Source: Pseudomonadota bacterium (GTDB lineage Bacteria; Pseudomonadota; Gammaproteobacteria; Burkholderiales; Rhodocyclaceae). From it: a stretch of 40,436 nt of DNA. The stretch spans positions 1 through 40,436 of the forward strand of contig JAKOTN010000095.1 of assembly GCA_029776255.1 (NCBI GenBank). Direction: 5' to 3'. The notes below the pieces were generated by a model, which saw only the letters and a list, made by a program, of their open reading frames with translations, made no database searches and had not been told where the DNA came from. The translations under genes were made by a program, and so were the position numbers. The stretch's first letter is position 1. Each line of letters begins with the position of its first letter. This document shows positions 12,236 through 27,868 of the stretch, piece after piece.

Positions 12236-13342
12236 TCAAGCGCCGCGTTCGCGCAACCAGCCACCGACTTTCGGCGCCAGCACTTTTTGCGCCAAGCCAC
12301 CGGTATAGATTCCGATATGACCGGTGGCGATCGCAAACTCGGAATAGTCCTTGCTGCCAACAAGCTTGCCAAGCGCGACAGTGCACGGCGGCGGCACGAT
12401 ATGGTCTTTTTCCGCGAAAACGTTGAGGATCGGGATGGTGAGTTCCTTGATATCGACTTTATGCTCACCCACCTCAAGCGTCCGCTTGGCCAATTTATTG
12501 CCTTTCAGGAAGTCGCGGATAAACTCCTTGAACGTCTGACCTGCCGCATCCGGACCGCCAAACAGCCATTTTTCCATGCGCAGGAAGTTGATCAACGCCG
12601 GGCGGTCATCCAGGATATCGATCACATCGGCGTACTTGCCGAAATTCAAGATAAACGGCGACGCCATCAGGAAGGAGACATTCAGCACATCCACCGGGAC
12701 GTTGCCATGCACGGCAACCATCTTGTCGGTATCCGCGTCGGCGCCCATGGTGAACATCAAGCCCTCGTGCGGCTTATGATTCGCCTTGTAGGCCTCGAAA
12801 TCGATCGGCGTGACGGTCAGCACCAAGTGGCTGATCTTGTCCTGGTGAAGTGTCGAATAGGTTGTCGAAATGGTGCCGCCCTGGCAAATACCCAGCAAGG
12901 CGATTTTGTCTACGCCATGACGCTGCCGAATGAAGTCGACGGTGTCGTCAAGATAGCCGTTGATGTAATCGTCGATGCTGCGGTATTTGTCGACTTGACG
13001 GGGGTAACCCCAGTTGTTGAGATAAACGTCGATACCTTCGTTCAAGAGGTTACGCACCAACGAACGATCCGGTTGCAGATCGGCCACCTGATAACCGTTG
13101 ATCAACGGCGGCACGATCAGCAGCGGCGTTTTCATGATCTTCGCCTGCTCGACGAGCGGATGATAGTGGTAAACCTCAATGCCATCTTGCGCGAAGACGG
13201 TGTCTTTCGGCGTGCTGCCGATATCGATGTCTTCATCGGTCAATTTATTGAGAACGTCGACACCCTTGGCGAGTTTCGCGTTCAGGGCGGCTGCTTCGGC
13301 CGCAAGATCGGCGGGAAGAATTTGAATGGGGAAATTAATCAT
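12236..13342 (-). CDS. phaC: Class III PHA synthase, catalytic subunit PhaC
   Basis: A 368-residue alpha/beta hydrolase-fold polymerase that joins (R)-3-hydroxyacyl-CoA units into polyester at the granule surface, as a complex with PhaE. The size is typical of class III PhaC. The lipase-like box GICQGG carries nucleophile Cys153; Asp313 in EKDHIVPP and His342 in GHIGIY complete the triad with spacing close to that of Allochromatium PhaC (C149/D302/H331, from memory). The ATG at 13340-13342 is preferred over an in-frame GTG three codons earlier because AGGAG sits 10 bases before the ATG but touches the GTG. It is the last gene of a six-gene minus-strand operon, 61 bases after phaE. Confidence 0.95.
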   Translation of the reverse strand: MINFPIQILPADLAAEAAALNAKLAKGVDVLNKLTDEDIDIGSTPKDTVFAQDGIEVYHYHPLVEQAKIMKTPLLIVPPLINGYQVADLQPDRSLVRNLLNEGIDVYLNNWGYPRQVDKYRSIDDYINGYLDDTVDFIRQRHGVDKIALLGICQGGTISTTYSTLHQDKISHLVLTVTPIDFEAYKANHKPHEGLMFTMGADADTDKMVAVHGNVPVDVLNVSFLMASPFILNFGKYADVIDILDDRPALINFLRMEKWLFGGPDAAGQTFKEFIRDFLKGNKLAKRTLEVGEHKVDIKELTIPILNVFAEKDHIVPPPCTVALGKLVGSKDYSEFAIATGHIGIYTGGLAQKVLAPKVGGWLRERGA

Positions 13343-13403
13343 GGGTAGCACGCTCCTATAGGTCCATTAGCTGATAAGCCCGATACAACTGTCAGGCTCC
13401 GGC

Positions 13404-14483
13404 TCACTCGCTCTTGGCGCGAGGCGCCTTACGGGGGGCAACCGTACCGCTGGCTTTTACTCCAGCACCTTGGGTCGATGGCAGCAATTCCTTCCGGAGG
13501 GCGCGGACCTCTTTTTTCAGATCGTGAATGACTTTGTAGGCCTCGTCCACCTCGGTGCGCGTCGGCATGTCCAGGCCGCGGAAAATATCTTCGACCACAA
13601 CCCGCTGCGCCAGTTTGTATTGCTGTTGGGCTTGGGTGAACTCGTTTTGTTTATCGAGAAACTCTTTTGAATTGAAGGTAACCAACAAGGAGGCATCGGC
13701 CGTACGGTACCAGAGACGCATCAGATCGCGCACGGAGGTGATTTTTTCGCCCTTGGCGGAAAGTTTGCCCAGCGCTTCGACCGTGGCTTCCACCGCCTTG
13801 GCCAAAGCTTCGGCGAACGCCGTGTGGAACTGGAGGCTGCTCTTGCGCAGATCGACGGAAGCATCGACCAGACGCATCATCTGGGCATTTTTCTCACGCG
13901 ACAAGCCAAAATGCGGAATTTGACCAATCGAACCGAATGCGCTGGCATCCCCTTCCATGGCCAGCAGGCGGCTAAGGCCCGCGGTACCGCCAAGCATGCT
14001 CTCGCCGACATTGCCGGCGGATGCCGCTTGCGCCAGGAAAGAGAGCCACGGCCCCATGGCGTTCGGCAAATCCTTGGACATCGTACCGGCCAGGTCGCCC
14101 AGGTGGGAACCCATGCCCAGGCTGCGCTGCAGCATGGCGGTCGATTCCTTGGCCCACTGATCGGCAAAACTCTTTAAATCGGGACGCCAGTCCTTGTTCG
14201 CTTCCAGGTTCGGGGCAACGACTTTCATCGACCTGAAAAAGAAGTCCATCACGCGGTTCATCGCGCTCTGGCTACCGGAAATGCGATCCATCAGTGCGCG
14301 TGCCGCTTCGTTGCTACCCTTGCTGGCAGCTTCAAAGCCCTTTTTAGCCACTTCGACGGGACCGCCGGTGCCTCCGGGCAGGTTTTGCAACAGCGCGGAC
14401 CAGTCGCCCCACATGCGTTTTTGCATATCGGCCCAGGCATTGACGACGCCGCTCAGTTGCTCGTTCGGGTTATTGTTTTCCAC
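13404..14483 (-). CDS. phaE: Class III PHA synthase subunit PhaE
   Basis: A 359-residue partner subunit required for activity of class III PhaC. It starts at a GTG (14481-14483) preceded by AAAGGAG nine bases upstream. Family features are an N-terminal aromatic segment (NAWADMQKRMWGDWSALLQN), a mostly helical body, and a C-terminal helix region (KVIHDLKKEVRALRKELLP). The C-terminal tail is basic and low complexity (KASGTVAPRKAPRAKSE), resembling nucleoid- or granule-binding tails. It lies directly upstream of phaC, which confirms the assignment. Its leader (14484-14621) contains two perfect 9-base hairpins. Confidence 0.93.
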   Translation of the reverse strand: MENNNPNEQLSGVVNAWADMQKRMWGDWSALLQNLPGGTGGPVEVAKKGFEAASKGSNEAARALMDRISGSQSAMNRVMDFFFRSMKVVAPNLEANKDWRPDLKSFADQWAKESTAMLQRSLGMGSHLGDLAGTMSKDLPNAMGPWLSFLAQAASAGNVGESMLGGTAGLSRLLAMEGDASAFGSIGQIPHFGLSREKNAQMMRLVDASVDLRKSSLQFHTAFAEALAKAVEATVEALGKLSAKGEKITSVRDLMRLWYRTADASLLVTFNSKEFLDKQNEFTQAQQQYKLAQRVVVEDIFRGLDMPTRTEVDEAYKVIHDLKKEVRALRKELLPSTQGAGVKASGTVAPRKAPRAKSE

Positions 14484-14513
14484 TCCTTTGATCTCCTTTC
14501 AGTATGTCGGACA

Positions 14514-14534
14514 CGCCTACCGCCTCGGTAGGCG
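14514..14534. other. Perfect hairpin in phaE leader (proximal)
   Basis: CGCCTACCG and CGGTAGGCG pair perfectly over nine bases around loop CCT. The structure lies about 30 bases upstream of the phaE GTG, immediately before its ribosome binding site. There is no T-run on the phaE strand, so it is more likely an RNA processing, stability or translation-control element than a terminator. Confidence 0.5.
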
Positions 14535-14574
14535 GATGCCCATCGGTAGACTGAGTGCACTCTACAACCAAACT

Positions 14575-14596
14575 GCGGCCGTCTGACGACGGCCGC
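14575..14596. other. Perfect hairpin in phaE leader (distal)
   Basis: GCGGCCGTC and GACGGCCGC pair perfectly over nine bases around loop TGAC, just past the stop of the upstream hydratase gene. On the minus strand it is followed by AGTTTGGTTGT, too poor in T for a strong terminator but possibly an attenuator. It could separate expression of the precursor-supply genes from phaEC. Confidence 0.5.
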
Positions 14597-14621
14597 GATC
14601 CTGCAGATAGCTGACAATGAA

Positions 14622-15041
14622 TCAAGCCAGAACCACTACTGCATCCGCCTTGTGCTTCGCCTCACCCTGCTCGTTGGCGCAGGTCAATTCGAGGCGAACA
14701 CATTTTTCTCCGTCTTGCTCGATTTTTTCGACGATTTTGCCGGTACAGACCATCCGCTCACCAACCCAGGTGATGGCCGTAAAGCGCACACCGAAACTGC
14801 GGATCGCTTCCTGGGGAACCCACTGGGTCAGCAAACGACCGAGATACGCCATGCCCAGCATGCCGTGGGCAAAAACGTCCGGCATCCCTTTCGAGCGAAC
14901 GTAATCTTGATCGAGGTGCAAGGGATGATGATCACCCGAACCCGTGGCATATAGCGCGAGGGTCAGGCGAGACACCGGCTCCGTGGTCAACGACGGAATC
15001 TCGTCGCCGACGTTAAGTGCATCAAAACTCGGTAGTGTCAT
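14622..15041 (-). CDS. MaoC-like (R)-specific hydratase/dehydratase, catalytic subunit
   Basis: A 139-residue hot-dog-fold protein. The motif YATGSGDHHPLHLD (residues 31-44) matches the hydratase-2 signature, with Asp37 and His42 in the spacing of the PhaJ catalytic dyad; the usual Asn is replaced by His39. Such enzymes reversibly hydrate trans-2-enoyl-CoA to (R)-3-hydroxyacyl-CoA, the monomer used by PhaC. ATG 15039-15041 is chosen over the adjacent GTG because AGGGG lies seven bases upstream. It follows 10 bases behind a second half-size hydratase gene lacking the dyad, suggesting a HadAB-like heterodimer. A thioester dehydratase role in another pathway remains possible. Confidence 0.82.
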   Translation of the reverse strand: MTLPSFDALNVGDEIPSLTTEPVSRLTLALYATGSGDHHPLHLDQDYVRSKGMPDVFAHGMLGMAYLGRLLTQWVPQEAIRSFGVRFTAITWVGERMVCTGKIVEKIEQDGEKCVRLELTCANEQGEAKHKADAVVVLA

Positions 15042-15051
15042 CACTAGTCCC

Positions 15052-15492
15052 CTATGCCCGAATGACCATCACGCTACGCAGGTCGCCAACCACTTCGCCC
15101 TGCCGGCGTACTTTGACTTCCTTGACGACGAACTGCAATGCGCCGTTCTTCTTGTCGTAGATGTCGGTGATTTCGCCATCGAAATCCAGTTTGTCACCGG
15201 AATAGATGGGCTTGTAGTAGTTAAAGGACTGCTCGCCGTGCAGCATCTTGCCGAGGTCGCACTCCATGGTTTCGAGATAATCGAAAGGATGCTCCTTGTC
15301 CATGTCCATGCAGAAAAAGAATGTGGGCGGTGCCAGCACGCCCGGCAACCCGGCCTTGTGGGCCGCTTCCTCGTCAAAATAGATCGGGTTGGTTTCTCCC
15401 GTCGCCTTGGCGAACCATTTCAATTGCCACGCCGTCAGGTTGACGGAATGCGGCGGCACTTTCATGCCGATGTGTTTCTTGTCAATCAACAT
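15052..15492 (-). CDS. FAS1-like/MaoC N-terminal-type dehydratase, non-catalytic partner subunit
   Basis: A 146-residue hot-dog protein of the MaoC N-terminal/FAS1-like dehydratase type. Recognisable stretches are FAKATGETNPIYFDEEAA, LPGVLAPPTFFF and GEQSFNYYKPIYSGDKL. Where catalytic hydratases have G-D-x-N-P-x-H, this protein has G-E-T-N-P-I-Y, so the Asp/His dyad is missing. In HadA/HadC-type pairs such a subunit shapes the acyl tunnel while the partner catalyses. It sits between thiolase and the catalytic subunit with 57 and 10 base gaps. Together the two genes plausibly encode one (R)-enoyl-CoA hydratase that feeds PHA synthesis. Confidence 0.8.
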   Translation of the reverse strand: MLIDKKHIGMKVPPHSVNLTAWQLKWFAKATGETNPIYFDEEAAHKAGLPGVLAPPTFFFCMDMDKEHPFDYLETMECDLGKMLHGEQSFNYYKPIYSGDKLDFDGEITDIYDKKNGALQFVVKEVKVRRQGEVVGDLRSVMVIRA

Positions 15493-15549
15493 CCGATTAC
15501 TCCTTGCCCGCCCCGGGCCACGGGGCGGGTTATCTCGTTGGCGACTTGA

Positions 15550-16731
15550 TCAGAGAACTTCCAGAGCGATCGCGGTTGCTTCACCACCGCCGGCACACAA
15601 GCCGGCGACGCCGCGCTTGAGACCGCGCGCCTTGAGGGCATAAAGCAGCGTCACCAGAATGCGCGAACCGGTGGCACCGATCGGATGCCCCATGCCACAA
15701 GCACCGCCATTCACATTGACCTTGTCGTGCGGCAGGTTGAGATCGCGCATCGACGCCATGGTAACCGCGGCGAAAGCTTCATTGACCTCCCAAAGATCGA
15801 CATCGGTGGTTTCCCAACCGACTTTTTTCAGCAACTTCTGAAAGGCGAACACCGGCGCGGTCGTAAACCAGGCGGGTTCGGCGGCATAGGTGGAATGTCC
15901 CACGATTCGGGCCAAAGGCTTGATTCCCGCCTTGACGGCATCGGATTCGCGCATCAGGACAAAAGCGGCGGCACCATCGGAAATCGACGACGAATTGGCC
16001 GGGGTTACCGCGCCATCCTTCTTGAAGGCCGGCTTCAGTTTCGAGATCTTGGAAACATCGCACTTCATCGGCGTTTCATCAGCCGCGATCGTTTCCTGCC
16101 CCTTGCGGGTGGTTACGGTTACCGGCGCGATTTCGGCATTAAAAGCACCTTCGGCAACGGAGCGCTGCGCGCGCGTCACCGACTCGGTAGCGAAAGCGTC
16201 CATTTCCTCGCGCGAGAAGTTGTATTTTTCGACGCACAACTCGGCGAAAGCGCCCATCAGCTTGCCCTGTTCGTAGGCATCTTCCAGACCATCGAGGAAC
16301 ATGTGATCGAACACCTGCCCGTTACCAAGCCGATAACCGGTCCGTGCGTTGGTCAGAACATAAGGCGCATTGGTCATGGATTCCATGCCGCCGGCAACGG
16401 CGATATTGATCGAACCGGCCAGTAGTTCGTCGTGCGCGATCATGACCGTTTTCTGCGCCGAACTACACATTTTGGTCAGGGTGGTGCACGGCACCGATTT
16501 CGGCAATCCAGCGCCGAGAACGGCCTGCCGCGCCGGCGCCTGCCGCAAGCCTGCCATCAGGCAGCATCCCATCAGGGCTTCGTCGATATCGTCGACATTG
16601 ACACCCGCCTGCTCGACCGCCGCCTTGATCGCGGTCGCGCCGAGTTGTGGCGCCGTCAGCCCAGCGAACTGTCCCTGGAAGGAACCCACTGGCGTGCGCT
16701 TGGCGCCTACGATGACTACTGATTCACTCAT
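15550..16731 (-). CDS. phaA: Acetyl-CoA C-acetyltransferase (beta-ketothiolase)
   Basis: A 393-residue thiolase that condenses two acetyl-CoA (or acetyl- with propionyl-CoA) to a 3-ketoacyl-CoA, the first step to PHB. Length and residue numbering match biosynthetic thiolases: acyl-accepting Cys89 in TKMCSSAQK, His349 in GMGHPIGATGS, and Cys379 in GLCAGGGEATA. The active-site surroundings deviate from the usual N-K-V-C-G-S-G-x-K and G-G-A-I-A-L-G-H-P-I-G, hinting at a different substrate preference such as longer or branched acyl groups. AGGAG precedes the ATG. It lies in the operon between the SDR dehydrogenase and the hydratase pair. The symbol phaA is given from context; a beta-oxidation thiolase is the alternative. 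Confidence 0.85.
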   Translation of the reverse strand: MSESVVIVGAKRTPVGSFQGQFAGLTAPQLGATAIKAAVEQAGVNVDDIDEALMGCCLMAGLRQAPARQAVLGAGLPKSVPCTTLTKMCSSAQKTVMIAHDELLAGSINIAVAGGMESMTNAPYVLTNARTGYRLGNGQVFDHMFLDGLEDAYEQGKLMGAFAELCVEKYNFSREEMDAFATESVTRAQRSVAEGAFNAEIAPVTVTTRKGQETIAADETPMKCDVSKISKLKPAFKKDGAVTPANSSSISDGAAAFVLMRESDAVKAGIKPLARIVGHSTYAAEPAWFTTAPVFAFQKLLKKVGWETTDVDLWEVNEAFAAVTMASMRDLNLPHDKVNVNGGACGMGHPIGATGSRILVTLLYALKARGLKRGVAGLCAGGGEATAIALEVL

Positions 16732-16791
16732 ACGACACTCCTAATAATGCAATGGCTATTGCCAAATTGAAGTTTTACGCTCGCCGGCACC

Positions 16792-17559
16792 TTATTTGGC
16801 GGCCATCCGGATCGAACCGTCGAGGCGGATGACTTCGCCGTTGAGGTACGAGTTTTCGCAGATGTGCCTGACCAGCGCCGCATATTCGGCTGGACGACCG
16901 AGACGCGAAGGGAACGGCACCATTTTGCCCAGCGAATCCTGCGCGGCTTGCGGCAGGCCTTTGAGCATCGGCGTTTCGAAGATGCCGGGGGCAATGGTCA
17001 CCACGCGGATTCCCAGCGCCGCCAGTTCGCGTGCGACAGGCAAAGTCAAACCGACAACCCCGGCCTTCGACGACGCATAGGCGGCTTGACCGATTTGTCC
17101 ATCGTACGCCGCCACCGAAGCGGTGTTGACGACCACGCCACGTTCGCCGGCGTCGTTGGGTTCATTCTTGTTCATCGCCTCTGCCGCCAGGCGAATCATG
17201 TTGAAAGTACCGACCAGATTGATGCTTACGACCCGCGCGAAGGTTCCCAAGTCATGCGGACCGTCGCGGCCGAGGACCTTCTTGGGCGGCGCCACGCCGG
17301 CGCAGTTGACCAAGCCGTGCAGCGCACCGAATTCTTTCACCGCCAGCTCGATGGCGGCACGCGCGCTCGCCTCATCCGTCACATCGGTTTTGGCAAAGCG
17401 GGCGTTTGGCCCGAGTTGCGCCGCCTGGGCCTCGCCGGCAACCGCATCGACATCGACAATGACCACTTTGCCGCCACCATCGACCACGGCACTTGCCGTC
17501 GCCGCGCCAAGCCCCGATCCCGCGCCCGTTACAACAAACACACTGCCATTGATTTGCAT
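16792..17559 (-). CDS. SDR 3-hydroxyacyl-CoA dehydrogenase (HSD10/type II-like)
   Basis: A 255-residue classical short-chain dehydrogenase. It has the cofactor motif TGAGSGLG (11-18), VDVD after beta-2 (an Asp that favours NAD(H)), NCAG (85-88), catalytic Ser148, Tyr161 and Lys165 (YASSK), and SPGIFETPM-like PGIFETPML. The chain resembles 17-beta-HSD10/2-methyl-3-hydroxybutyryl-CoA dehydrogenases, which act on (S)-3-hydroxyacyl-CoA, more than PhaB/FabG reductases. ATG 17557-17559 has GGGGG five bases upstream; the longer frame begins at a TTG. It is the first gene of the minus-strand PHA operon. Stereochemistry is inferred from family resemblance and is the key uncertainty. Confidence 0.82.
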
Positions 17560-18234
17560 TTTAACCCCCAAAAAAATATCGCGGCATCACGCGATGACGC
17601 GCTACTGACCCGTGCCAACGGTGATCGTTAAAACAGGCGTCGTCACAGGAAAATCGAACTAAGCTGGTAACAGGAGGACGGCTCGCGGCGACACGAGAAT
17701 GGGTTCCGGAAATACAACCAAACAGGAAAAGCCAATTGGGAAACGAGCAGCCGGAAACCACGAAACCCCGTTACACCTGCCGCACCCTGCGTGCCGGAAC
17801 ATGGCGACAGGCAACCTCGGCATTGTCGAATGCGGAGCGCTACCGAGTCAAGCGCCTGACACGCTTGCCTGCGCGAACCCGCGTTGTCGCCCCTGACCGG
17901 CACGCTGGTTTGACGGTCCGAGGAAAAACACCACGGTGAATACCGGTCATTGAAAAAACCGTCGGCCATCTGATGAAAAATCGCTGGGAATACTCGGTCA
18001 CGATTGCACGACCTCTTTCGGTGAAAACGCTCGCACCAACACGACAGAGGATATGGATCCCACGTTCAATCAGGCGTCACAAGTCCACAGGCCGCTGAAA
18101 AAAAAGAAAAATAGTCCTTCAAACGTTGATTTGGATCAGGCCGAACAACTGTTTTCCAGCCTATATTTAATTGCATGAATGGCCTTGAGCGCCCTCGGGC
18201 AAAAATAGGCCGAAGTCCCGACAGGAGAATAGTC
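17560..18234. other. Divergent PHA-locus control region
   Basis: About 670 bases separate the minus-strand operon from the plus-strand class I phaC, so promoters for both must lie here. No credible gene was recognised among the short open frames. ATCGCG and CGCGAT form a 6-base inverted repeat at about 17578-17595, just upstream of the SDR start, and could be an operator. An AT-rich stretch near 18105-18178 (TTGATT then TATATTTAATT) is a promoter candidate for phaC, but the -35/-10 spacing is not standard. AGGAGA at 18222-18227 is the phaC ribosome binding site. Confidence 0.4.
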
Positions 18235-20235
18235 ATGGTTGAAAAGGCAACACCCCCCAGTATCGTGACCGACGAACAACCGGCAACCGGCGGCGCGGCA
18301 AAGACGCGCGCCAAACCCACCACACCTCGCCGTCGAAAACCAGCCGCCACGACGAGCGCTCCCGAATCGATGGCCGCCACCGTGGCCGTGGTCGCGACAA
18401 CACCTGTCGCCCCCGTGCCAGCCGCAGCCATTCCCCAACAACCGGCGCCCCGCAAAGACGCGCCGCCGCGTGGCGAATTCTCCCGCCGCCTGGGCGACCG
18501 AGCGCAACTTGATTCGGATGCACTGGAACAAATCGACCGCATGACCAACGTGGCCTTGGGCAAACTTAGCGGCGGTCTGTCGCCCGCTTCGCTGGCCATG
18601 GCCTATCTGGACTGGATGGTTCACTTGTCGGCATCGCCGGGCAAACAGTTCCAACTGGCCGCCAAGGCGACCCGCAAAGCGCTACGGCTCGGGAGTTATG
18701 CGTTGACCTCCGCCATCACCGGCAATGCCGAACCGACGATCAAGCCGCTTCCCGGAGATCATCGCTTCGACCATCCAGGCTGGCAACGCTTCCCTTACAA
18801 CGTGATCTATCAAGGCTTTTTACTGAATCAACAATGGTGGCACGCCGCCACCACCGGCATCCGTGGCGTCGGCAAACACAGTGAAGCCGCCGTTTCGTTC
18901 ATGGCCCGTCAGATTCTCGACATGAACGCTCCGTGCAATGTCCCTTTACTTAACCCGGAGATCGTCGACGCCACCGTTGCCGAACGGGGCGCCAACCTGG
19001 CGCGCGGCGCCAAACATTTCGGCGAGGACATTCGCCGCTCCTTGCGCGATGAGAAGCCCGCCGGCATGGAGGCATTCCGCGTCGGTGAAAACCTGGCCGC
19101 CACACCCGGCAAGGTGGTGTTCCGCAATCATCTGATCGAACTGATCCAATACGCGCCAACCACGGCGACCGTTCAGCGGGAGCCGGTGCTGATGCAATCG
19201 GCGTGGATGATGAAGTACTACATCCTCGATTTGTCACAACATAACTCGCTGGTCAAATATCTGGTCGATCGCGGTCATACGGTATTCATGGTTTCCTGGC
19301 TCAACCCGGGGCCGGAACACCGCAATCTCGGAATGGAGGATTACCGCAAACACGGCACGCTGGCGGCAATCGACGCCGTCTCCGACATTCTGCCGGGACG
19401 CAAGATCCACACCGTCGGTTACTGCCTTGGCGGCATCTTGCTGACCATCGTCGCCGCGGCCATGGCCCGCGACGGCGACGAGCGTCTGGCCAGCGTGACC
19501 TTGTTTACCACGATGACCGATTTCACCGAAGTCGGCGAAATCAACGTCTTCATGGACGCCAGCGAGGTGACCTTGCTCGAAGACATGATGTGGGAAAAAG
19601 GCTACCTGGGACACAAGCAAGTCTCGGGCGGTTTTCAGTTGCTCAAGTCAGCGGACCTGATCTGGTCGAAGATGGTTCGCGAGTATTACCTCGGCCATCG
19701 TGAACCGATGTTCGATTTGATGGCCTGGAACGCCGACGGCACTCGCATGCCCTATCGGCAGCATTCGGAAGTTCTGCGCCGGCTGTACGTGGACAACGAA
19801 CTGTTCGAAGGCAAGTACATGGTCGATGGTCGCGCCATTTTGATCAGCAACATCCACGCACCGATCTTTTCGGTGGCGGCCGCGGCGGACCATGTCGCCC
19901 CTTGGCGCTCGGTATACAAACTGCATCTGCAAAGCGACGCGACCGAATTGACTTTCGTGCTGACCAGTGGCGGGCATAACGTTGGCATCGTCAATGAACC
20001 GGGACGGCCGCGCCGCTCTTACCAACTCAGCGTCTGCAAAATCGGCGAGCGTTGCCTGGATGCGGCCACCTGGAAAGAACAAACGCCTACTTACGAGGGA
20101 TCGTGGTGGCCGACGTGGCAACAATGGCTGGAAAAACACTCCTCGGGCACGGGGCCGGCACCCGCAATGGGCGCTCCAGACAAAGGCTATGCGCCGCTTT
20201 GCGACGCGCCGGGAACCTACGTCCTGCAACAATAG
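18235..20235 (+). CDS. phaC: Class I-type PHA synthase with Ala/Pro/Lys-rich N-terminal extension
   Basis: A 666-residue synthase beginning at ATG 18235 with AGGAGA seven bases upstream. Residues about 15-80 are low complexity and rich in Ala, Pro, Thr, Lys and Arg. The PhaC N-terminal domain follows (HPGWQRFPYNVIYQGFLLNQ near 181-200), then the alpha/beta core. The nucleophile box GYCLGG has Cys397, Asp552 is in AADHVAPW and His581 in GGHNVGIVNEPG, matching class I spacing. It polymerises short (R)-3-hydroxyacyl-CoA without a PhaE partner. It is divergent from the class III operon and not followed by phaA/phaB. It ends 160 bases before the convergent ligase gene. Confidence 0.93.
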   Translation: MVEKATPPSIVTDEQPATGGAAKTRAKPTTPRRRKPAATTSAPESMAATVAVVATTPVAPVPAAAIPQQPAPRKDAPPRGEFSRRLGDRAQLDSDALEQIDRMTNVALGKLSGGLSPASLAMAYLDWMVHLSASPGKQFQLAAKATRKALRLGSYALTSAITGNAEPTIKPLPGDHRFDHPGWQRFPYNVIYQGFLLNQQWWHAATTGIRGVGKHSEAAVSFMARQILDMNAPCNVPLLNPEIVDATVAERGANLARGAKHFGEDIRRSLRDEKPAGMEAFRVGENLAATPGKVVFRNHLIELIQYAPTTATVQREPVLMQSAWMMKYYILDLSQHNSLVKYLVDRGHTVFMVSWLNPGPEHRNLGMEDYRKHGTLAAIDAVSDILPGRKIHTVGYCLGGILLTIVAAAMARDGDERLASVTLFTTMTDFTEVGEINVFMDASEVTLLEDMMWEKGYLGHKQVSGGFQLLKSADLIWSKMVREYYLGHREPMFDLMAWNADGTRMPYRQHSEVLRRLYVDNELFEGKYMVDGRAILISNIHAPIFSVAAAADHVAPWRSVYKLHLQSDATELTFVLTSGGHNVGIVNEPGRPRRSYQLSVCKIGERCLDAATWKEQTPTYEGSWWPTWQQWLEKHSSGTGPAPAMGAPDKGYAPLCDAPGTYVLQQ

Positions 20236-20395
20236 AACTGAAATCCACGCGGCCCGTGGCATGAACAACCGTCACGTCGCCGCGAAGCCAACACGGCGCC
20301 ACCGATTTGGCAACCGGTAAGCGCGACCCACTGAACCCGGGCCGCGCTTTGTGGCGGAAACCGCTCCGCGGATTGTAGATTGAGGGTCGCGTTTG

Positions 20396-21934
20396 CTAAC
20401 GCGAGCCGCCGCGCGCCGCCTCGTAAGCGGCGCGCATGCTGCGCTTGAGCGTTTTTCCCGCCGCATTGCGCGGAAAATCGTCCAGGATCAACACCTCGTG
20501 CAAACGTTGATAACGGGCGTCTACCCGCGCGTTGATCCACGCCTTTAACGCCTCCGCGTCAACGGTGGACTGGCTGTGGAGAAGCACGGCGGCTACCGGC
20601 GTTTCGCCCCATTTTTCATGTTCGACGCCAAACACGGCCACTTCGAGGATGTCGGGATGACGCGCGGCGATTTCTTCAATATCGCGCGGATAAATTTTGA
20701 CTCCGCCGCTGTCGATCATGTCCTTCTTGCGGTCGACCAGATACAAATAGCCTTCGTCATCCACGTAACCCAGATCGCCGGTAAACAACCAACCGTCACG
20801 GAGAGCCTGGGCGGTCAAGTCGGGGCGTCCATGGTAACCGGACATCAGCGACGGTCCCCGACCGACGATTTCGCCGACCTGCCCGATCGCGACCTCGGCA
20901 CCGTCGTCGCCAACGATGCGCATCTCGTAAAAATAGGGCGGCGAACCGACCGAACCCGCCTTGCGCAAGGATTGCGTCTTGTCGAGGATGGTCCAGAAGC
21001 CTTCGGTCAAGCCGTAGAGTTCGTAAAACCGATTCGGCAACAAGCGGTTGAGCCGATCCTTGTGTTCCTGAAGCAGCGGCGCGCCCAGCGACAGGATCAT
21101 TTCCAGCGAGGACAGCTTCTCGGGCGAGAAATTCGGCGCGTTGAGCACGGCGATGATCTGGGCCGGCACCATCATGGTGTGCGTCACCCGCTCGCGGGCG
21201 ATGATCTCTATCGCCTCCATGGCGTCGAACTGGCGTTGCAAGACATAGCGCGCGCCAAGGTAAAAACAGGGCATCATGGTCACGAAAGCCCCATTGAAGA
21301 CGATGGCGCCGGTATGCAGAACCACCGATTCGGGGTGCATTCGCCAAGCCGACGCAAACAACGTGCAGTACATGGCGCGCACGAAGTGGCTGTGCATGAT
21401 TCCTTTCGGCAAGCCGGTCGTGCCGCTGGTATACATAATGTTGAACAGATCGTCGGACCGGCAGGGAGCAAAATCGGGCAGCCTGTCAGGAAAGGTGTCG
21501 AGCAACGCACGATAGTCGACATACCCCGCCGACGCGCCGTCGACGATCAGCACACGATCGGCCGCGAGTTCCGGCAGTTCCGCGCGCACCTCGTCGATCA
21601 CCGTCGCCATCGACCGCTGACTGACCAGGCAGCACGCGCCGGAATCGCGCAGCAAACTGGCCAGACCCGAAGCCATCAGCAGCGGACTCAAAGGCACCAA
21701 AACCGCACCAATCGCTGGAATCGCCCAATAAACCTCCAGCAATTCCCGGCAATTGCTCAACACCGTTGCCACCCGATCGCCTTTGCCGACACCCAGACCT
21801 TGCAACATGCGCGCGCAACGCGCGATGCGTGCCTCGAATTGACGCCATGTCAGTCGGTCGTTCTCGAAAACGACGGCCACCTGATCCGGCCGAAACTTCG
21901 CGTGCTGCCGCACGACATTTGTCAGCTGTAGCAT
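20396..21934 (-). CDS. AMP-dependent acyl-CoA synthetase/ligase
   Basis: A 512-residue ANL-superfamily enzyme that activates a carboxylic acid with ATP and CoA. The P-loop motif YTSGTTGLPKGIMHSH (near 165-180), YGLTEGF, GWLFTGDLGYVDDEGYLYL and DRKKDMIDSGGVKIYP are in order, and the C-terminal lysine segment NAAGKTLKRSMR is present, so it is complete. The ATG at 21932-21934, with GGAGG ten bases upstream, matches the family start (MLQLTNVVRQHAKFRPDQVA); the open frame further upstream is unrelated. Acid specificity cannot be read; a medium-chain or cyclic/aromatic acid is possible. It could convert scavenged acids, or acids released by the depolymerase, to CoA thioesters for this locus. Confidence 0.9.
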   Translation of the reverse strand: MLQLTNVVRQHAKFRPDQVAVVFENDRLTWRQFEARIARCARMLQGLGVGKGDRVATVLSNCRELLEVYWAIPAIGAVLVPLSPLLMASGLASLLRDSGACCLVSQRSMATVIDEVRAELPELAADRVLIVDGASAGYVDYRALLDTFPDRLPDFAPCRSDDLFNIMYTSGTTGLPKGIMHSHFVRAMYCTLFASAWRMHPESVVLHTGAIVFNGAFVTMMPCFYLGARYVLQRQFDAMEAIEIIARERVTHTMMVPAQIIAVLNAPNFSPEKLSSLEMILSLGAPLLQEHKDRLNRLLPNRFYELYGLTEGFWTILDKTQSLRKAGSVGSPPYFYEMRIVGDDGAEVAIGQVGEIVGRGPSLMSGYHGRPDLTAQALRDGWLFTGDLGYVDDEGYLYLVDRKKDMIDSGGVKIYPRDIEEIAARHPDILEVAVFGVEHEKWGETPVAAVLLHSQSTVDAEALKAWINARVDARYQRLHEVLILDDFPRNAAGKTLKRSMRAAYEAARGGSR

Positions 21935-22746
21935 TTCCCTCTCGCCTCCTGTCCACTCTCGTTCGTAGTCGCCGCGACCGCCAATCGACCGCACTCTTTT
22001 GCATTCTCGCATTGTTCTTGATCGACAAATGGCGTCGTCAGCACCACCCGCCAGCACCCGCTGCACAGCCGTTGACACTACCGCACCGCAACAAAAGGTC
22101 AAGAGGCCGTAGCGGCGGGCATGTCCAAACGCCTTTAGATCCGTTCCGGAAAACTCGTTCGGCTGGCGCCCGGAATTGCCCCAACCACCGGCGGCAAACC
22201 GTAATCCTGGCTCACGCCGGCACTTGCGGAAAAAGTCGCGCGTGAAATATCCACCAGAGTGAACAAAATCGGCGCAGAAGAGTAGAATGCATTGTGCGGT
22301 GCGGAATGATGTGCTTCGCGCGGTTCGCGTGCGGTCTGATCGCTGTCCATTCCACTCCTGGCAACACTGGCAAAGACGTTCCGCGGAATCGCAAAATCCT
22401 GGAGCCGAACCCACTGCCCGGCGACCACGGGCCACGTATGAACAAACATGAATTCTGGCGCTCAGTCGCACTCTCGATCGTAACCCGCCCGGTGGCGGAG
22501 ACCGCCTCACACGCCGGGTTTCGTAGTGAGCGACCGGCCTGCCAAACCCATCGAAAAACCGACTTCCCGATACCGCTGGAAGGTGTCCACCGTCGAAGTG
22601 CTTGACTGGCAACAAATGGATCTGTTTCGCATCATTGTCCGCGACGAAATCACGAAAATGCGCTTTTCGACGAGGCCAAGAAAATCGTGGATCACTCCTT
22701 ACGGGCTGGTCCGTTTTAACTCTCGTTAATTGTTGGAGGTTGGAAG
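21935..22746. other. Long divergent intergenic region upstream of the third PhaC-like gene
   Basis: About 810 bases with only short open frames lacking recognisable domains. GGCGG and CCGCC form a small hairpin near 22494-22506. The ribosome binding site GGAGG (22735-22739) serves the 22747 start. Promoters for both the ligase (minus) and the synthase-like gene (plus) must be here, but no hexamer pair with good spacing was found. The size leaves room for a small RNA or leader, for which there is no direct evidence. Confidence 0.35.
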
Positions 22747-24213
22747 ATGTTTGCCCTGCTAAGAGAAATGCCGGACTTCACCACGAGCTGGTGGAGGTAC
22801 ACCCTGGCGATGATGCGCGCCTCGAATCGCGAAGTAAGCGAGTTCAACGACAACCTCTTCATCGCCGCGCACATCGCCATGACCGCGGCGCGCGACAACC
22901 CCTTGAGCCTGATGGAAACCCTGGAAGTGGTCGAACACAACGTCGGCATGGCGCGCAAGGGCATGGCCGGGATGCAGGAAAAAGTGGCCGACTATGCTTT
23001 TGACCAGATCGAAGAAGCCACCCGCGCTTTCCTGAATACCATCATGAAGTCGGATGGTGAAAAGCTTGGCGGCTACATGCGCCGCGAAGCGGAAATCATG
23101 GAGTCGGTTTCCAATTTCAACGAACAGATCGAAGCCATCGCCGACGAATTCGGTTTCCATTTCGGCACACCCAATTACAAACTGGTGCACGAAACCGACA
23201 GTTTCCAGCTGTATCAGGTGCTGCCACTGAAGAAAGGCGTCGAAGTCCGCACCGATCTCAAGCCGGTCATGCTCGTACCGCCGTACATGCTGGGTGTTCA
23301 CATCCTGTCCTTCCTGCCCTACGAAAACAAGAGCTACAGCCACTCGTTCGCCAACGAAGGCATTCCGACCTATGTCCGTGTCGTCAAGGACATCATGACC
23401 GTCGAAAAAGTCCAGACGATGACGCCGGAGCAGGATTGCGACCAGACCTACGAACTGCTCGCCAAGATCAAGGAACTGAATGGCGGCAAGAAAGTCACGC
23501 TGAACGGCACCTGTCAGGGCGGTTACATCTCCCTGATGAACATTCTGTCGGGCAAGCTGCAAGATGTCTGCGATGCACTGATCACCAACGTCACGCCGGT
23601 CGACGGCACGTGTAGCGCGGCCATCAGCGGCATGCCGACCATGCACCACGACTTCATCACCACCACCCTGCCCAGCGGCAACAAGGTCGCCAACGGCTAC
23701 CTGCTCAGCCTCGGCATGCGCTTTGTCGCCATCGACCGCGAAACCCCGCTGGTCAAGGTGCTCGACCAAGCGTCGCTGCATCGCGCCACCGACCTCAACC
23801 CCGGCAAGACCCCGGCGGCGCTGTTCCGCTGGTTGCTGAAGGAACGCGTGCATCTGCCGCTCGCCATCGCCAACATGAGTTCGCACACCTTCCAGGATCC
23901 GATCGGCGAAGACGGCGCCCTTCCGGTCAAGCTGTTCGACAAGCCGTTGAACATCAAGAGCTTGATCGACATGAAAGTGCCTTGGTACCAGAACTATGCG
24001 ATCAAGGACGACCTTGTCACCCCGCTCTGCGCCACCGCCGGCAACAAATTCCTCGGCGACTGGGAAGGTTTGGAATCCGTGGCCTTCTTCGGCGGTCACG
24101 TGGCCATTCTGACCAGCCCCTACGGCAAGAAGGCGCCGGTCAACGGATCGTTCACCGATGCCAACGGCAAACCAAGCCGTGGCCCGGTGAAGTTCCAGAT
24201 GGACATTTCCTGA
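22747..24213 (+). CDS. Divergent PhaC-type alpha/beta hydrolase (third synthase-like protein)
   Basis: A 488-residue protein with GGAGG upstream of ATG 22747. The N-terminal 130 residues are helical and unlike the PhaC N-terminal domain (MFALLREMPDFTTSWWRYTL, then methionine- and glutamate-rich helices). The core has a synthase-like nucleophile elbow NGTCQGGY with Cys256, and then DALITNVTPVD as in class III PhaC (LVLTVTPID). Asp421/422 is in IKDDLVTP and His451 in GGHVAILTSPYG, with spacing close to that of PhaC triads. It could be a synthase of a new class, a thioesterase-like or depolymerising relative, or a partner of the other synthases. It is followed by a hairpin terminator and the crotonase gene. 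Confidence 0.75.
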   Translation: MFALLREMPDFTTSWWRYTLAMMRASNREVSEFNDNLFIAAHIAMTAARDNPLSLMETLEVVEHNVGMARKGMAGMQEKVADYAFDQIEEATRAFLNTIMKSDGEKLGGYMRREAEIMESVSNFNEQIEAIADEFGFHFGTPNYKLVHETDSFQLYQVLPLKKGVEVRTDLKPVMLVPPYMLGVHILSFLPYENKSYSHSFANEGIPTYVRVVKDIMTVEKVQTMTPEQDCDQTYELLAKIKELNGGKKVTLNGTCQGGYISLMNILSGKLQDVCDALITNVTPVDGTCSAAISGMPTMHHDFITTTLPSGNKVANGYLLSLGMRFVAIDRETPLVKVLDQASLHRATDLNPGKTPAALFRWLLKERVHLPLAIANMSSHTFQDPIGEDGALPVKLFDKPLNIKSLIDMKVPWYQNYAIKDDLVTPLCATAGNKFLGDWEGLESVAFFGGHVAILTSPYGKKAPVNGSFTDANGKPSRGPVKFQMDIS

Positions 24214-24270
24214 GCGCCTGAGACAAAGGGGTAACGCCAGGGAGCGCCTCATGGCGATCAACTGATGATT

Positions 24271-24308
24271 CGCCGGCCGGACGCCATCGTCCGGACCGGC
24301 GATATTTT
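24271..24308 (+). terminator. Hairpin terminator after the third PhaC-like gene
   Basis: CGCCGGCCGGACG (24271-24283), loop CCAT, then CGTCCGGACCGGCG (24288-24301) form a long GC stem with one bulged A, followed by ATATTTT. This is a good candidate intrinsic terminator for 22747-24213, separating it from the downstream crotonase. Confidence 0.6.
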
Positions 24309-24463
24309 CATCGGCGGATAGCGGACGCCGCGCTAGAAGCCCCGGCGTGATCGACGCCCCAAAAGTGCGCGACATCTGGGCGCCGCGGCTCCAGTTTTCA
24401 GTCTTTTTCCGAAACCTTCTTTCAAGCCCTGTTTCCCATTCATTCAATCCGGAGATTCACCTG

Positions 24464-25240
24464 ATGAGCTACAACAACATCAATGCTGAAGTACAAGGTA
24501 AAGTCGGTCTGATCACCCTCAACCGTCCAAAACAGCTGAATGCACTCAACGATGACCTGATGGACGAACTCGGCCAGGCGCTGGCCGCTTTCGAGGCCGA
24601 CGAAAACATCGGCGCAATCGTCATCACCGGCTCAGACAAGGCTTTCGCCGCTGGTGCCGACATCACGGTCATGCAGTCGCTGACCTATATGGACGCCTAC
24701 AAGGGCGACTTCATCACCCGCAACTGGGACAAGCTCAAGAGTTGCCGCAAGCCGGTCATCGCGGCGGTTGCCGGCTACGCCCTGGGTGGTGGCTGCGAAC
24801 TGGCGATGATGTGCGACATCATCATCGCTGCCGACAACGCCCAGTTTGGTCAACCCGAAGTCCGCCTGGGCGTCCTCCCCGGCGCGGGCGGCACGCAACG
24901 CCTGCCACGCGCCATTTCCAAGGCCAAAGCGATGGAGATGTGTCTGGCATCCAGAAATATCGATGCTCAGGAAGCCGAACGCGCCGGACTGGTTTCGCGT
25001 ATCGTACCCGCCGACAAACTGCTTGAAGAAGCACTTTCGACCGCCAAGAAGATCGCCAGCTTCTCGCTGCCGGTGGTCATGATGATCAAGGAGTGCATCA
25101 ACCGCGCTTACGAAAGCTCACTGGCCGAAGGCCTGCTGTTCGAGCGCCGCACTTTCCACTCGGTCTTCGCGCTCGACGACCAGAAAGAAGGCATGGCCGC
25201 TTTCGTCGAGAAGCGCAAACCGTCTTTCAACAACCGCTAA
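24464..25240 (+). CDS. Enoyl-CoA hydratase (crotonase)
   Basis: A 258-residue crotonase-fold enzyme that hydrates trans-2-enoyl-CoA to (S)-3-hydroxyacyl-CoA and runs in reverse. The oxyanion-hole segments AAGADI (62-67) and GYALGGG (105-110) are present, as are both catalytic glutamates: Glu112 in [10 protein letters not shown] and Glu132 in [19 protein letters not shown]. Length is that of short-chain hydratases. ATG 24464 has CGGAG nine bases upstream; the longer frame is not family-like. In this locus it could connect (S)-3-hydroxyacyl-CoA from the SDR with crotonyl-CoA for the (R)-hydratase pair. A conventional beta-oxidation role is also possible. Confidence 0.92.
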
Positions 25241-25258
25241 TCGCAACCGGTAGTGAAA

Positions 25259-25292
25259 TTGCATGCCGCGCCGTCGTCGGTGCGGCATGCAA
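25259..25292. terminator. Bidirectional hairpin between crotonase and depolymerase
   Basis: TTGCATGCCGCGCCG (25259-25273) pairs with CGGTGCGGCATGCAA (25278-25292) around loop TCGT, giving a 15-base stem with one G-T pair. It sits between the convergent ends of the crotonase and the depolymerase. On the minus strand it is followed by TTTC; on the plus strand there is no T-run. It probably acts as a shared terminator. Confidence 0.65.
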
Positions 25293-25315
25293 GCGGGTGC
25301 ATTGGACCGCTGGTT

Positions 25316-27868
25316 TCAGCAATGAGCCAGATCGACGGCGTTTTGAATCGCGATCTGGTCCACCCACGCCTTGGCGACCACGGTGTTATAGGTATTCGCG
25401 TAGGCAGCGACTTCAAGTGTCAGGGTCACGGTGCGATTGGCGAACCGCGACAAATCGATCGACGCCTGCCTTAACCACTCATTCTCCTGATGCGCCATGC
25501 CAATGGCCGTCACCTCGTCGACAATGACGCCGTCGATGAATACCCGAAAACTCGCACTGGTGTAGTCGTTGGCCGACGCGCGGAGATCCAGCCGTCGCAC
25601 ATAGGACAGTTCGGGCCGCGCTCCGAGCCTGATCTGGCGCGAGATGGCGCCCACCCGTGCGCCGATGGCGCCTCCATCACCGGAGACGACAGAACCGTGA
25701 AGCATCGGACCGCCTTGAAAGGCGCGCGGATCGTCACGCAACACCTCCCAGCCGTTCCCTTCCCAACCCGCCGTTTGCAAAACCATCTCCGCATTGCCGG
25801 CGGCCTGCCGCGAAACGTCTTTCAGCACCCCGGCCGCCTCCAGAGCCGTCGAAATGATTCCCGGCACATCGATCCCCATCGGAGCATTACCGCCGGACCG
25901 GCGAGCGGTGCTGCCGCTCTTGAGCAAACCGGCCGCTTCCAGCGATGCCGAAATGATTCCGTGCACATCCAGGCCAAATGATCGGCCGGTCGCGGAGCGG
26001 GGAGTCCGCTCATCGACGGCATCGGGCGGCGCGTCCGTTCCCGCTGGCTTCTCCTGGCATTCTTGTGAACGACCGTCCTGCTTCATACCCGCCGAGCGAT
26101 GACTCGACGCTTCCGGCGCAGAGTGTTCCGTCGCCGACCCGTCACGCGCTGGAGACGCCGCCAACAGCCCCCAAAAATCGGCAATCCGATGGGTAGACGA
26201 AATTCCTACCGCGTTGAAGAAAGGCGCCGCCGTGCCACACTGATGCGGACCCGCCCCCGGATCGAGCGCCGCGCCGTGCGCCATGCCGGTAATCGTATAA
26301 CTCTCGATCAATTCCTCGCCATCCGCGCCTTGCCATACCCTTCGCGGATAACCGTCAACGGACATTTGAATCGTCGGTTCGACGCCGAGACCATGAACAT
26401 CCGTCCATTGCTTGATGATTTCCTCGGCGTTGATCGGGTTTACCGTCGTGTCCGCGTCACCGTGCCAGACCGAAAGTCGTGGCCACGGCCCCTGATGCCT
26501 TGAGGCCGTCCGCACCAGACTCCCCCATTCGCCTGGCGAACGGCCGCGCCCCTGAAAAATGCTCACCAACCCTTCCTGCAAGCCGCTCGCCGTTCGATAA
26601 GGCACCCCGGCAATCACCGCCCCGCCGGCGAAAAGCTCGGGATACGTGGCCAACATCACCCCAGTCATCGCCCCGCCCGACGAGGTGCCGGTGACATACA
26701 CTTTCTCGGCATCGATAGCGTATTCCCGTAACAAGTAGTCAACCATCTGCCTGATTGACAGCGCCTCTCCTTTTTCGCGTTCGTTATCTTCCGGGCGAAA
26801 CCAGTTGAAGCAGCGCAAAGGATTGTTACTCCATTGCTGCTGCGGAAACAACAGCGCGAAACCGTAGCGATCGGCGAGGGTCGACCAGCCGCTGCCTTTG
26901 TTGTACGAAGCGGCGCTCTGGGTACACCCGTGCAATACCACCACCAGCGGCGCTTTCGCCGGCAACGCTGTTGGCAGATAAGTCATCATCCGCAACTCCC
27001 CCGGATTGGTGCCGAAAGCGGTGACCTCCGCCAAGCGATTTTCTTGCGCTTCTACTTTCTCCGACCACGCTTGCACGGCAGTCAGCGACGACAACACTTT
27101 CTCCCAACGACTTCCGTGCGGCGTCTTCGCGGCGAGTTTCGCCATCGCGGCGATGTTGGCCATTTTGTCACTTAATTTATTCAGCATTGAAATCCTCCCG
27201 TCGTCGGACAAGGTGGTAAGTAGGCCGATCTCGACCAATTTTCGGACCGGCAGAAAAACCGTGTGAAAGAGGCCAGGATCGGCATTCCCATCGCGCCGCG
27301 GATCAAGCCATGTCGGTGGAAGGGCGTCCGGCGCCAGGCCGAAAGTATGACTGACAAGGGCGCGACGCCCCTGCCAAAAACGACTGAACTGCACTGCGGC
27401 GACGGGACATCCCCGATTCACCCACACGCCGAAGACCTCGCTGGTCAACAGCGCGCGTGTGTCCTCGGCGCGAGCCAGATCCAGCAAGCCAGCCAGGGCA
27501 TCGCCAAAGCGCATGCCGTCAAGTCGGATCGCCGACGCGATAGGTGGCCCATCAACCGCCTCGGCTGCTCGCGGCCCGAACAGTACACGCGGCGAATGGT
27601 CGTCACACGCCAGATCGCTTGCCCGCAAATCGGCATAGCAGCGAATGGCTTCCAATGTCTGCGATTGTTGTGGCGCCGCCATGGCCCCGATCAGCAGATC
27701 GGCCGCATAGCGCGGGGTCGTCGGCGGTGAGCCGCGACCGCGAGGCCCCGGCGCCACCAAACCGCCAGTGACCATCAAGGTCACACGAAAACGCAGATCA
27801 CGACGCGACTCGCCGAGGATGTCCGCCAGTCGCTCGCTGAATTCATAACGTGCCAGTCCGTTTGCCAT
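25316..27868 (-). CDS. PHB depolymerase family esterase joined in frame to an unrelated N-terminal domain
   Basis: The open frame encodes 850 residues in two distinct parts. Residues 1-227 are an unrecognised domain with winged-helix-like character and no signal peptide. From Met228 (ATG 27185-27187) begins a complete 623-residue PHB depolymerase (LpqC/esterase PHB type). It has VVLHGCTQSAASY for the oxyanion hole, nucleophile Ser in GTSSGGAM, Asp in WHGDADTTVNP and His in GMAHGAALDPG. After the catalytic domain come a linker, two copies of a 20-residue repeat, and a beta-rich C-terminal domain that could bind polymer. GGGAGG six bases before Met228 is a better ribosome binding site than anything before the 850-residue start, so the depolymerase is probably also, or only, made from the internal ATG. 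It cleaves PHA esters, presumably inside the cell. Confidence 0.85.
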   Translation of the reverse strand: MANGLARYEFSERLADILGESRRDLRFRVTLMVTGGLVAPGPRGRGSPPTTPRYAADLLIGAMAAPQQSQTLEAIRCYADLRASDLACDDHSPRVLFGPRAAEAVDGPPIASAIRLDGMRFGDALAGLLDLARAEDTRALLTSEVFGVWVNRGCPVAAVQFSRFWQGRRALVSHTFGLAPDALPPTWLDPRRDGNADPGLFHTVFLPVRKLVEIGLLTTLSDDGRISMLNKLSDKMANIAAMAKLAAKTPHGSRWEKVLSSLTAVQAWSEKVEAQENRLAEVTAFGTNPGELRMMTYLPTALPAKAPLVVVLHGCTQSAASYNKGSGWSTLADRYGFALLFPQQQWSNNPLRCFNWFRPEDNEREKGEALSIRQMVDYLLREYAIDAEKVYVTGTSSGGAMTGVMLATYPELFAGGAVIAGVPYRTASGLQEGLVSIFQGRGRSPGEWGSLVRTASRHQGPWPRLSVWHGDADTTVNPINAEEIIKQWTDVHGLGVEPTIQMSVDGYPRRVWQGADGEELIESYTITGMAHGAALDPGAGPHQCGTAAPFFNAVGISSTHRIADFWGLLAASPARDGSATEHSAPEASSHRSAGMKQDGRSQECQEKPAGTDAPPDAVDERTPRSATGRSFGLDVHGIISASLEAAGLLKSGSTARRSGGNAPMGIDVPGIISTALEAAGVLKDVSRQAAGNAEMVLQTAGWEGNGWEVLRDDPRAFQGGPMLHGSVVSGDGGAIGARVGAISRQIRLGARPELSYVRRLDLRASANDYTSASFRVFIDGVIVDEVTAIGMAHQENEWLRQASIDLSRFANRTVTLTLEVAAYANTYNTVVAKAWVDQIAIQNAVDLAHC
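27194..27199 (-). promoter_or_regulatory. Internal ribosome binding site for the depolymerase domain
   Basis: On the minus strand GGGAGG lies six bases before ATG 27185-27187, inside the 850-codon open frame. It precedes MLNKLSDKMANIAAMAK, which looks like a natural protein N-terminus. It decides between a fusion protein and an independent 623-residue depolymerase. Confidence 0.6.

Follow-up and report, generated by a model that had tools for sequence, protein, structure and literature searches.

The phosphorus removal that Candidatus Accumulibacter drives in sewage works depends on a feast-famine cycle of polyhydroxyalkanoate (PHA), and the Cys-type intracellular polyhydroxybutyrate (PHB) depolymerase PhaZ is a Cys-Asp-His hydrolase of the fold of the PHA synthase PhaC. 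Several PhaC paralogs with differing expression within one genome have been described, in the accessible parts of the sources, for Haloferax mediterranei and Bradyrhizobium diazoefficiens (PMC12863089, PMC10888616). Multiple PhaC per genome are thus already known, and they are usual in the family studied here, where 137 of 150 sampled genomes had two to four PhaC_N matches, a number that does not fit the statement of a first-pass annotation that a single class in a short operon is the rule for most genomes. Here, we describe a PHA locus within the window (the whole 40,436-nucleotide stretch, from contig JAKOTN010000095.1 of assembly GCA_029776255.1), which belongs to a Candidatus Accumulibacter genome of 3.79 Mb over 171 contigs. 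The locus encodes three PhaC-fold proteins, namely the PhaC of a class III PhaE-PhaC pair, a class I-type synthase (PhaC-I) and a divergent protein (HYD); a fourth PhaC (583-aa frame) lies apart on contig C133, giving four in the genome.

In paralog multiplicity this genome resembles the multi-PhaC genomes of H. mediterranei and B. diazoefficiens, but unlike them it has one paralog, HYD, that falls outside the PhaC family models and stands with an acyl-CoA ligase, a crotonase and a depolymerase. The genes form two modules: module A consists of PhaC-PhaE-MaoC-HadA-thiolase-SDR (short-chain dehydrogenase/reductase) with the divergent PhaC-I gene, and module B of ligase/HYD-crotonase/PhaZ (Table 1). 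We tentatively read the locus as two modules with two synthases for different conditions, in which HYD would act on PHA chains and not as a third polymerase, an interpretation that is quite possible though short of probable. A literature search, with subscription papers mostly outside it, found no account of HYD or of the locus as a unit.

A class III pair, a class I-type synthase and an FNR-type box

The class III pair (12236-14483) resembles described class III systems in that PhaC scored 385.0 bits against TIGR01836 (cut-off 365.3) and PhaE 137.7 against the Pfam PhaE model PF09712 (cut-off 25.7); PhaE also scored 107.7 against the NCBIfam model TIGR01834, below the cut-off of 154.95. Like class I PHA synthases, PhaC-I has a PhaC_N domain (PF07167, 169.5 bits, cut-off 23.7), a PHBC_N domain and the Cys-Asp-His triad but, unlike them, it fell below the NCBIfam class I cut-off (TIGR01838, 493.2 against 622.65). 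The presence of AGGAGA six bases 5' of an ATG favoured a start at 18235 within the longer open reading frame (ORF) from 18175, as the first-pass annotation had it. Triads were C156-D316-H345 in class III PhaC, C417-D572-H601 in PhaC-I (numbered from 18175) and C256-D421-H451 in HYD, with spacings of 160/29, 155/29 and 165/30 residues, respectively. The class III and HYD triads matched by profile, and the Cys, Asp and His were invariant in an alignment of 40 PhaC and 9 HYD rows; the earlier statement that all three proteins have a triad at PhaC spacing was borne out. The ratio of nonsynonymous to synonymous substitutions (dN/dS) was 0.087–0.092 for class III PhaC (2 pairs) and 0.092–0.218 for PhaC-I (3 pairs). 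Separately, we observed that PhaC-I was split in two or contained stop codons in G155 (contig C7), G161 (C3), G162 (C240) and G164 (C283), through decay or assembly error, and that second copies occurred in G154 (C129, 73% identity) and G159 (C75, 71%).

A box, TTGA(C/T)NTG(G/A)ATCAG, which we take to be an FNR-type site by its consensus, lay 5' of PhaC-I in 17 of the 18 Accumulibacter loci that remained once near-duplicates had been combined manually (L002 into the window, L040 into L021); the exception was L100 of genome G168. Across 16 of the box-bearing loci the box was 98% conserved, compared to 46% in the 40 bases before it and 52% in the 70 bases after it; in L042 it lay at 433 bases. 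A loose FNR pattern matched 19 times in the whole window against 10.9 expected (3 of 100 shuffles were as high), and therefore the case for an FNR-type site rests on the cross-genome footprint. Sequence 5' of HYD, SDR and ligase had no match at a constant place; PhaC-I is the only one of the three PhaC-fold genes at the locus with a conserved FNR-type box. Among seven alphaproteobacterial plasmid loci, the box was exact in L102 and L104, had one mismatch in L106 and L108 (at 453 bases in the latter), was weaker in L107 and L103 and was absent from L105. It was not found in L097 or in L098 (125 readable bases). An FNR site 5' of phaC in several Accumulibacter genomes has already been published, according to the accessible part of that paper (PMC6446978), and the regulator of PhaC-I would, we infer from sequence, be of FNR type. 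The division of labour proposed in the first-pass annotation is plausible to the extent that a conserved box stands 5' of PhaC-I only. The accessible parts of four papers on Accumulibacter mention 'phaC' without separating copies, and a count of 'phaC' transcripts may lump several enzymes together.

HYD, a divergent PhaC-fold protein

HYD is a real gene, because it is preceded by a ribosome-binding site (GGAGG seven bases 5' of ATG) and its dN/dS was low (0.055–0.087 in 4 pairs), indicating selection as strong as on the synthases. It had no Pfam match at 0.001, ten HYD members had no PF07167 match at 10, and its score against TIGR01836 was 40.3 bits, where the cut-off is 365.3; it thus fails the PhaC family models (PF07167, TIGR01836 and TIGR01838) while having Cys-Asp-His in the PhaC positions. 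Profile comparison aligned HYD 139-462 with class III PhaC 44-356 (probability 98.3, E 2.3e-14), with the triads paired, and the match to class I was weaker (probability 55.9). Compared to class III PhaC, HYD therefore has the catalytic domain in common by profile, but it adds about 138 helical residues and lies far below the family cut-off. A PhaE-like nature of this N-terminus was ruled out (profile probability 0.5). In the 40 PhaC and 9 HYD rows, 14 of 29 near-universal PhaC residues were kept in HYD, including Cys, Asp, His and the elbow glycines, and 15 were lost, including W-x-x-P and the C-terminal W.

In the tree, the branch leading to HYD measured 4.5 changes per column and, under midpoint rooting, lay outside class I and class III; an alternative tree that included one wrong-frame row (CI_L112, since dropped) placed it with class III at weak support (80/6), and its position thus shifts between trees. 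Two tree rows, CI_L109 and CI_L110, had been chosen by a longest-ORF rule, and both fell in class I. Structure modelling gave a pLDDT of 38.9 when based on 10 close HYD rows and of 57.7 when based on 35 rows, PhaC rows among them. PHA synthases took all of the best 14 PDB fold matches of the 35-row model, with E from 2.6e-10 to 6.2e-7, and other hydrolases matched only from E 4.1e-6; because the alignment contained PhaC rows, these matches are partly circular. A search of solved structures with the HYD sequence found none, only phage portal proteins with E near 1.

The intact triad and nucleophile elbow, the profile match to class III PhaC, the 14 synthase fold matches and the arraying of HYD with phaE-phaC in locus L028 (genome G920, a Chromatiaceae metagenome-assembled genome, MAG) would all suit a divergent PHA synthase, the third at the locus and possibly one that uses other monomers, in which the helical N-terminus replaced PhaE. 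However, the score of HYD lies far from the PhaC cut-off, more than half of the near-universal residues are gone, W-x-x-P and the C-terminal W with them, no PhaE-like stretch was seen, and the fold model was itself built with PhaC rows, and we regard a third synthase as distinctly unlikely. Based on its gene company, its triad and the lost PhaC residues, HYD is more likely a Cys-dependent PHA-chain hydrolase or acyltransferase than a polymerase. A reading as one three-synthase unit was not supported, as HYD fails the PhaC family models and its constant company is the ligase, the crotonase and the depolymerase.

Two modules in Accumulibacter and their relatives

We surveyed 28 Accumulibacter genomes, with same-contig counts made by hand from the survey tables. 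Class III PhaC (>80% identical) was present in 26 of these, the exceptions being G162 (72% complete) and G168; PhaC-I, whole, cut or broken, was present in all 28; and full-length HYD was present in 26, with a weak match only in G157 and none in G168. Class III PhaC and PhaC-I shared a contig within 15 kb in 24 genomes (in G155 via the broken copy), and all three PhaC-fold genes did so in 14 when the limit was 30 kb and in 10 when it was 15 kb. HYD was 433 kb away in the complete genome G125, and in several other genomes it was on a separate contig, which by itself is no proof of distance; the stretches read around HYD in L033-L036, L038 and L041 had no PhaC-I match. Given these counts and the fourth PhaC on contig C133, the locus is, contrary to the earlier claim, not self-contained. 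The region with its three PhaC-fold proteins is nonetheless conserved, under purifying selection and not specific to this strain, and a synteny confined to one strain with signs of decay was not what we observed.

The neighbourhood of HYD was counted in 26 distinct loci (L004-L026, the window, L031 and L039). The divergent ligase stood next to HYD in all 25 judgeable loci, the crotonase in all 26 (three cut by contig ends), and the depolymerase was near in 20 of 23 judgeable loci. On the HYD gene tree, the presence of PhaC-I within 10 kb changed 6 times among 24 labelled loci; shuffled labels gave a mean of 8.0 changes, and 49 of 500 shuffles were as low as 6. These neighbour counts and changes on the tree indicate that ligase, HYD and crotonase form the constant group, to which the depolymerase usually belongs, and that the position next to PhaC-I is kept only loosely.

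Scanning a genome collection with HYD gave 25 loci, of which 22 were titled Accumulibacter (85–92% identity), one was a Pseudomonadota MAG (89%) and two were gammaproteobacterial MAGs (70% and 65%). Full-length HYD occurred in 4 of 150 genomes of the family, all of the genus, and in 4 of 210 from the order to which the Chromatiaceae MAG belongs, G920 having two copies. It occurred in none of 397 other genomes sampled across the phylum or 368 across the class, where short matches of 18.8–23.4 bits fell within class III-type PhaC; a plasmid search with HYD had no match, and a viral-contig search with class III PhaC and HYD profiles led nowhere. HYD is typical of the genus and very rare elsewhere, and it is a candidate component of the Accumulibacter PHA cycle.

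Class III PhaC more than 80% identical to that of the window was likewise found in 4 of the 150 family genomes, all of the genus; other class III copies were 42–43% (G024, G140) and 28% (G100, G137) identical, and that of L028 59%. The PhaC of G919, genome of L027, and that of G920, genome of L028, were 60–62% identical to PhaC-I, which was 53–56% identical to the best 15 of 220 plasmid records. In the tree of sampled sequences, PhaC-I grouped with G919/G920 (100/99), class III PhaC with L028 (96/99) and HYD with the second G920 copy (99/96). The PhaC-I clade included PhaCs from plasmids of Paracoccus, Methylocella, Sphingomonas, Bosea, Azospirillum and Bradyrhizobium (100/100); PhaC-I of Accumulibacter groups with this low-oxygen plasmid clade but differs from it in adjoining a class III operon and not fabI, except in G168. 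Class III genes are thought to be more mobile between taxa than those of classes I and II, in the accessible part of one paper (PMC8312272). These relationships support a gene stock of all three PhaC-fold genes common with Chromatiales-type gammaproteobacteria, and the direction of any gene transfer is one that we infer.

Gene neighbourhoods outside the genus were varied. In L028, phaE, phaC, thiolase, a DUF35-type protein and an SDR (the last two identified by eye) and then HYD lay on one strand, with PhaR and phasin genes about 7 kb farther on. SDR genes were also 5' of HYD in L093-L095; by eye, L093 and L094 had no other PHA genes near HYD, and L027 had nif genes on one side of it. In L097 (G920), PhaC-I was flanked by a PHB depolymerase gene, 46% identical to that of the window in the match, and by an ABC1-kinase gene. 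The plasmid relatives of PhaC-I adjoined FabI, enoyl-CoA hydratase/phosphate acetyltransferase or acetate kinase, and others adjoined universal stress proteins, in one case together with a Crp/Fnr gene, or thiolase; in G168, which lacks class III PhaC and HYD, a FabI-like gene was 0.7 kb from PhaC-I.

Two further genes recurred at these loci. The ABC1-kinase gene directly 5' of HYD in L027 (283-1773) was 60% identical to that directly after PhaC-I in L097 (6494-8041), and CoA-transferase and alpha/beta-hydrolase genes recurred near PHA genes of the gammaproteobacterial MAGs (L028:229-2374, L097:11818-13131, L098:1387-2283; 55% and 58% identical between loci).

The substrate of HYD might instead be an ester or thioester that has nothing to do with PHA, its nearness to PHA genes being an accident of history. 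This would agree with the co-location of all three PhaC-fold genes in just half of the Accumulibacter genomes, with a PhaC-I nearness that was not clearly clustered on the HYD tree, and with the nif genes of L027 and the SDR-only surroundings of L093 and L094. However, HYD stands beside PHA genes in separate lineages (the window type and L028), both HYD carriers G919 and G920 also have the PhaC-I type, and the related ABC1-kinase genes link HYD in L027 to PhaC-I in L097, and we judge an unrelated substrate unlikely.

Proposed working of the locus and gene map

In the two-module interpretation, every enzymatic role is a prediction. Thiolase and SDR would make (R)-3-hydroxyacyl-coenzyme A (CoA), which the HadAB-type two-part (R)-hydratase would link to enoyl-CoA, and PhaE-PhaC would polymerise 3-hydroxyacyl-CoA. 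The divergent PhaC-I may serve as an additional synthase or as a modulating partner in synthesis, controlled by an FNR-type regulator and tied to low oxygen. PhaZ would cut the polymer, the ligase would re-charge the freed hydroxyacids with CoA and the crotonase would feed beta-oxidation, and HYD may apply its Cys-Asp-His triad to PHA chains or oligomers, either hydrolysing them or transferring acyl groups from them to CoA.

Several observations weigh against this interpretation. The triad of HYD would suit a synthase too, and the HYD neighbours in L028 are synthesis genes. HYD is like the Cys-type PHB depolymerase in fold and triad but, unlike it, has no match to the family model (TIGR01849, up to E 0.001). 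No depolymerase lay by the crotonase in L013, L016 (0.8 kb readable) and L039. For PhaC-I, the seven class I proteins from Rhodocyclaceae (L065-L071), of which six entered the tree, are no fair family sample because they were recruited by class III similarity. Furthermore, phaC expression did not change on oxygen exposure in the accessible part of one study (PMC6446978), in the accessible part of another (PMC8407102), an anaerobic rise of phaC and of the ligase FadD13 was common to two Accumulibacter strains, which we otherwise count in favour of this interpretation; if FadD13 is the ligase of module B, that module would be on in the synthesis phase, at odds with a purely mobilising role.

By analogy with PhaC2 of Bradyrhizobium, HYD and PhaC-I could also act chiefly by pairing with PhaC and modulating it. 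In B. diazoefficiens, phaC2 is a FixK2 target and its product was proposed, in the accessible part of the paper, to lower PhaC1 activity via heterodimers (PMC10888616), and a plasmid PhaC of B. septentrionale falls within the PhaC-I clade. The invariant triads and low dN/dS suggest catalysis instead, and a mainly modulating role appears improbable. A bolder version of the two-module interpretation is that HYD founds a new PhaC-fold class, a Cys-dependent PHA-chain hydrolase/acyltransferase with its own helical granule-binding part, acquired with class III PhaC and the low-oxygen PhaC from Chromatiales-type bacteria as part of the Accumulibacter feast-famine polymer cycle; we consider this conceivable but doubtful.

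The genes named in the first-pass annotation stood where it had put them, and the thiolase, the SDR, the AMP ligase, the type 1 depolymerase and the hydratases (MaoC-like, HadA-like and crotonase) were all verified.

Table 1. Features of the PHA locus, with positions in the window.
Feature	Position	Strand	Evidence
Class III PHA synthase subunit PhaC	12236..13351	-	TIGR01836
PhaE subunit	13404..14483	-	PF09712
MaoC/HadB-like (R)-hydratase subunit	14622..15044	-	PF01575; HadB-like, below NCBIfam cut-off
FAS1-DH/HadA-like hydratase subunit	15052..15492	-	PF13452; HadA-like, below NCBIfam cut-off
Thiolase	15550..16731	-	PF00108, PF02803; TIGR01930 400.3, cut-off 240.55
SDR, FabG-like 3-oxoacyl reductase	16792..17571	-	PF00106, PF13561
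FNR-type box 5' of PhaC-I	18126..18139	+	1 mismatch vs FNR consensus
PhaC-I, class I-type PHA synthase	18235..20235	+	PF07167; ORF 18175-20235
AMP-forming acyl-CoA ligase	20396..21934	-	PF00501, PF13193
HYD, divergent PhaC-fold protein, helical N-terminus	22747..24213	+	profile match to class III PhaC; triad
Crotonase-type enoyl-CoA hydratase	24464..25240	+	PRK05862 467.9, cut-off 396
Type 1 PHB depolymerase (PhaZ)	25316..27868	-	NF050058 322.5, cut-off 150

The SDR reached no NCBIfam cut-off among its best 25 matches. The PRK05862 match of the crotonase begins at residue 40 of the ORF, and the gene start was placed at 24464. The start of the ligase was set by GAGAGG and an ATG, and a longer, TTG-started ORF reaching 22615 was rejected. 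Two minus-strand frames, 22759-24447 and 17643-17969, had no family match and were not accepted as genes. The PHB depolymerase has 850 aa, of which only about 285-566 form the catalytic domain, with long N- and C-terminal parts that lack a Pfam match; no secretion signal was seen by eye (no predictor was run), and the long form was found again in relatives at 65–74% identity. A dynamin-like GTPase gene (28193-30148, PF00350) adjoins the locus.

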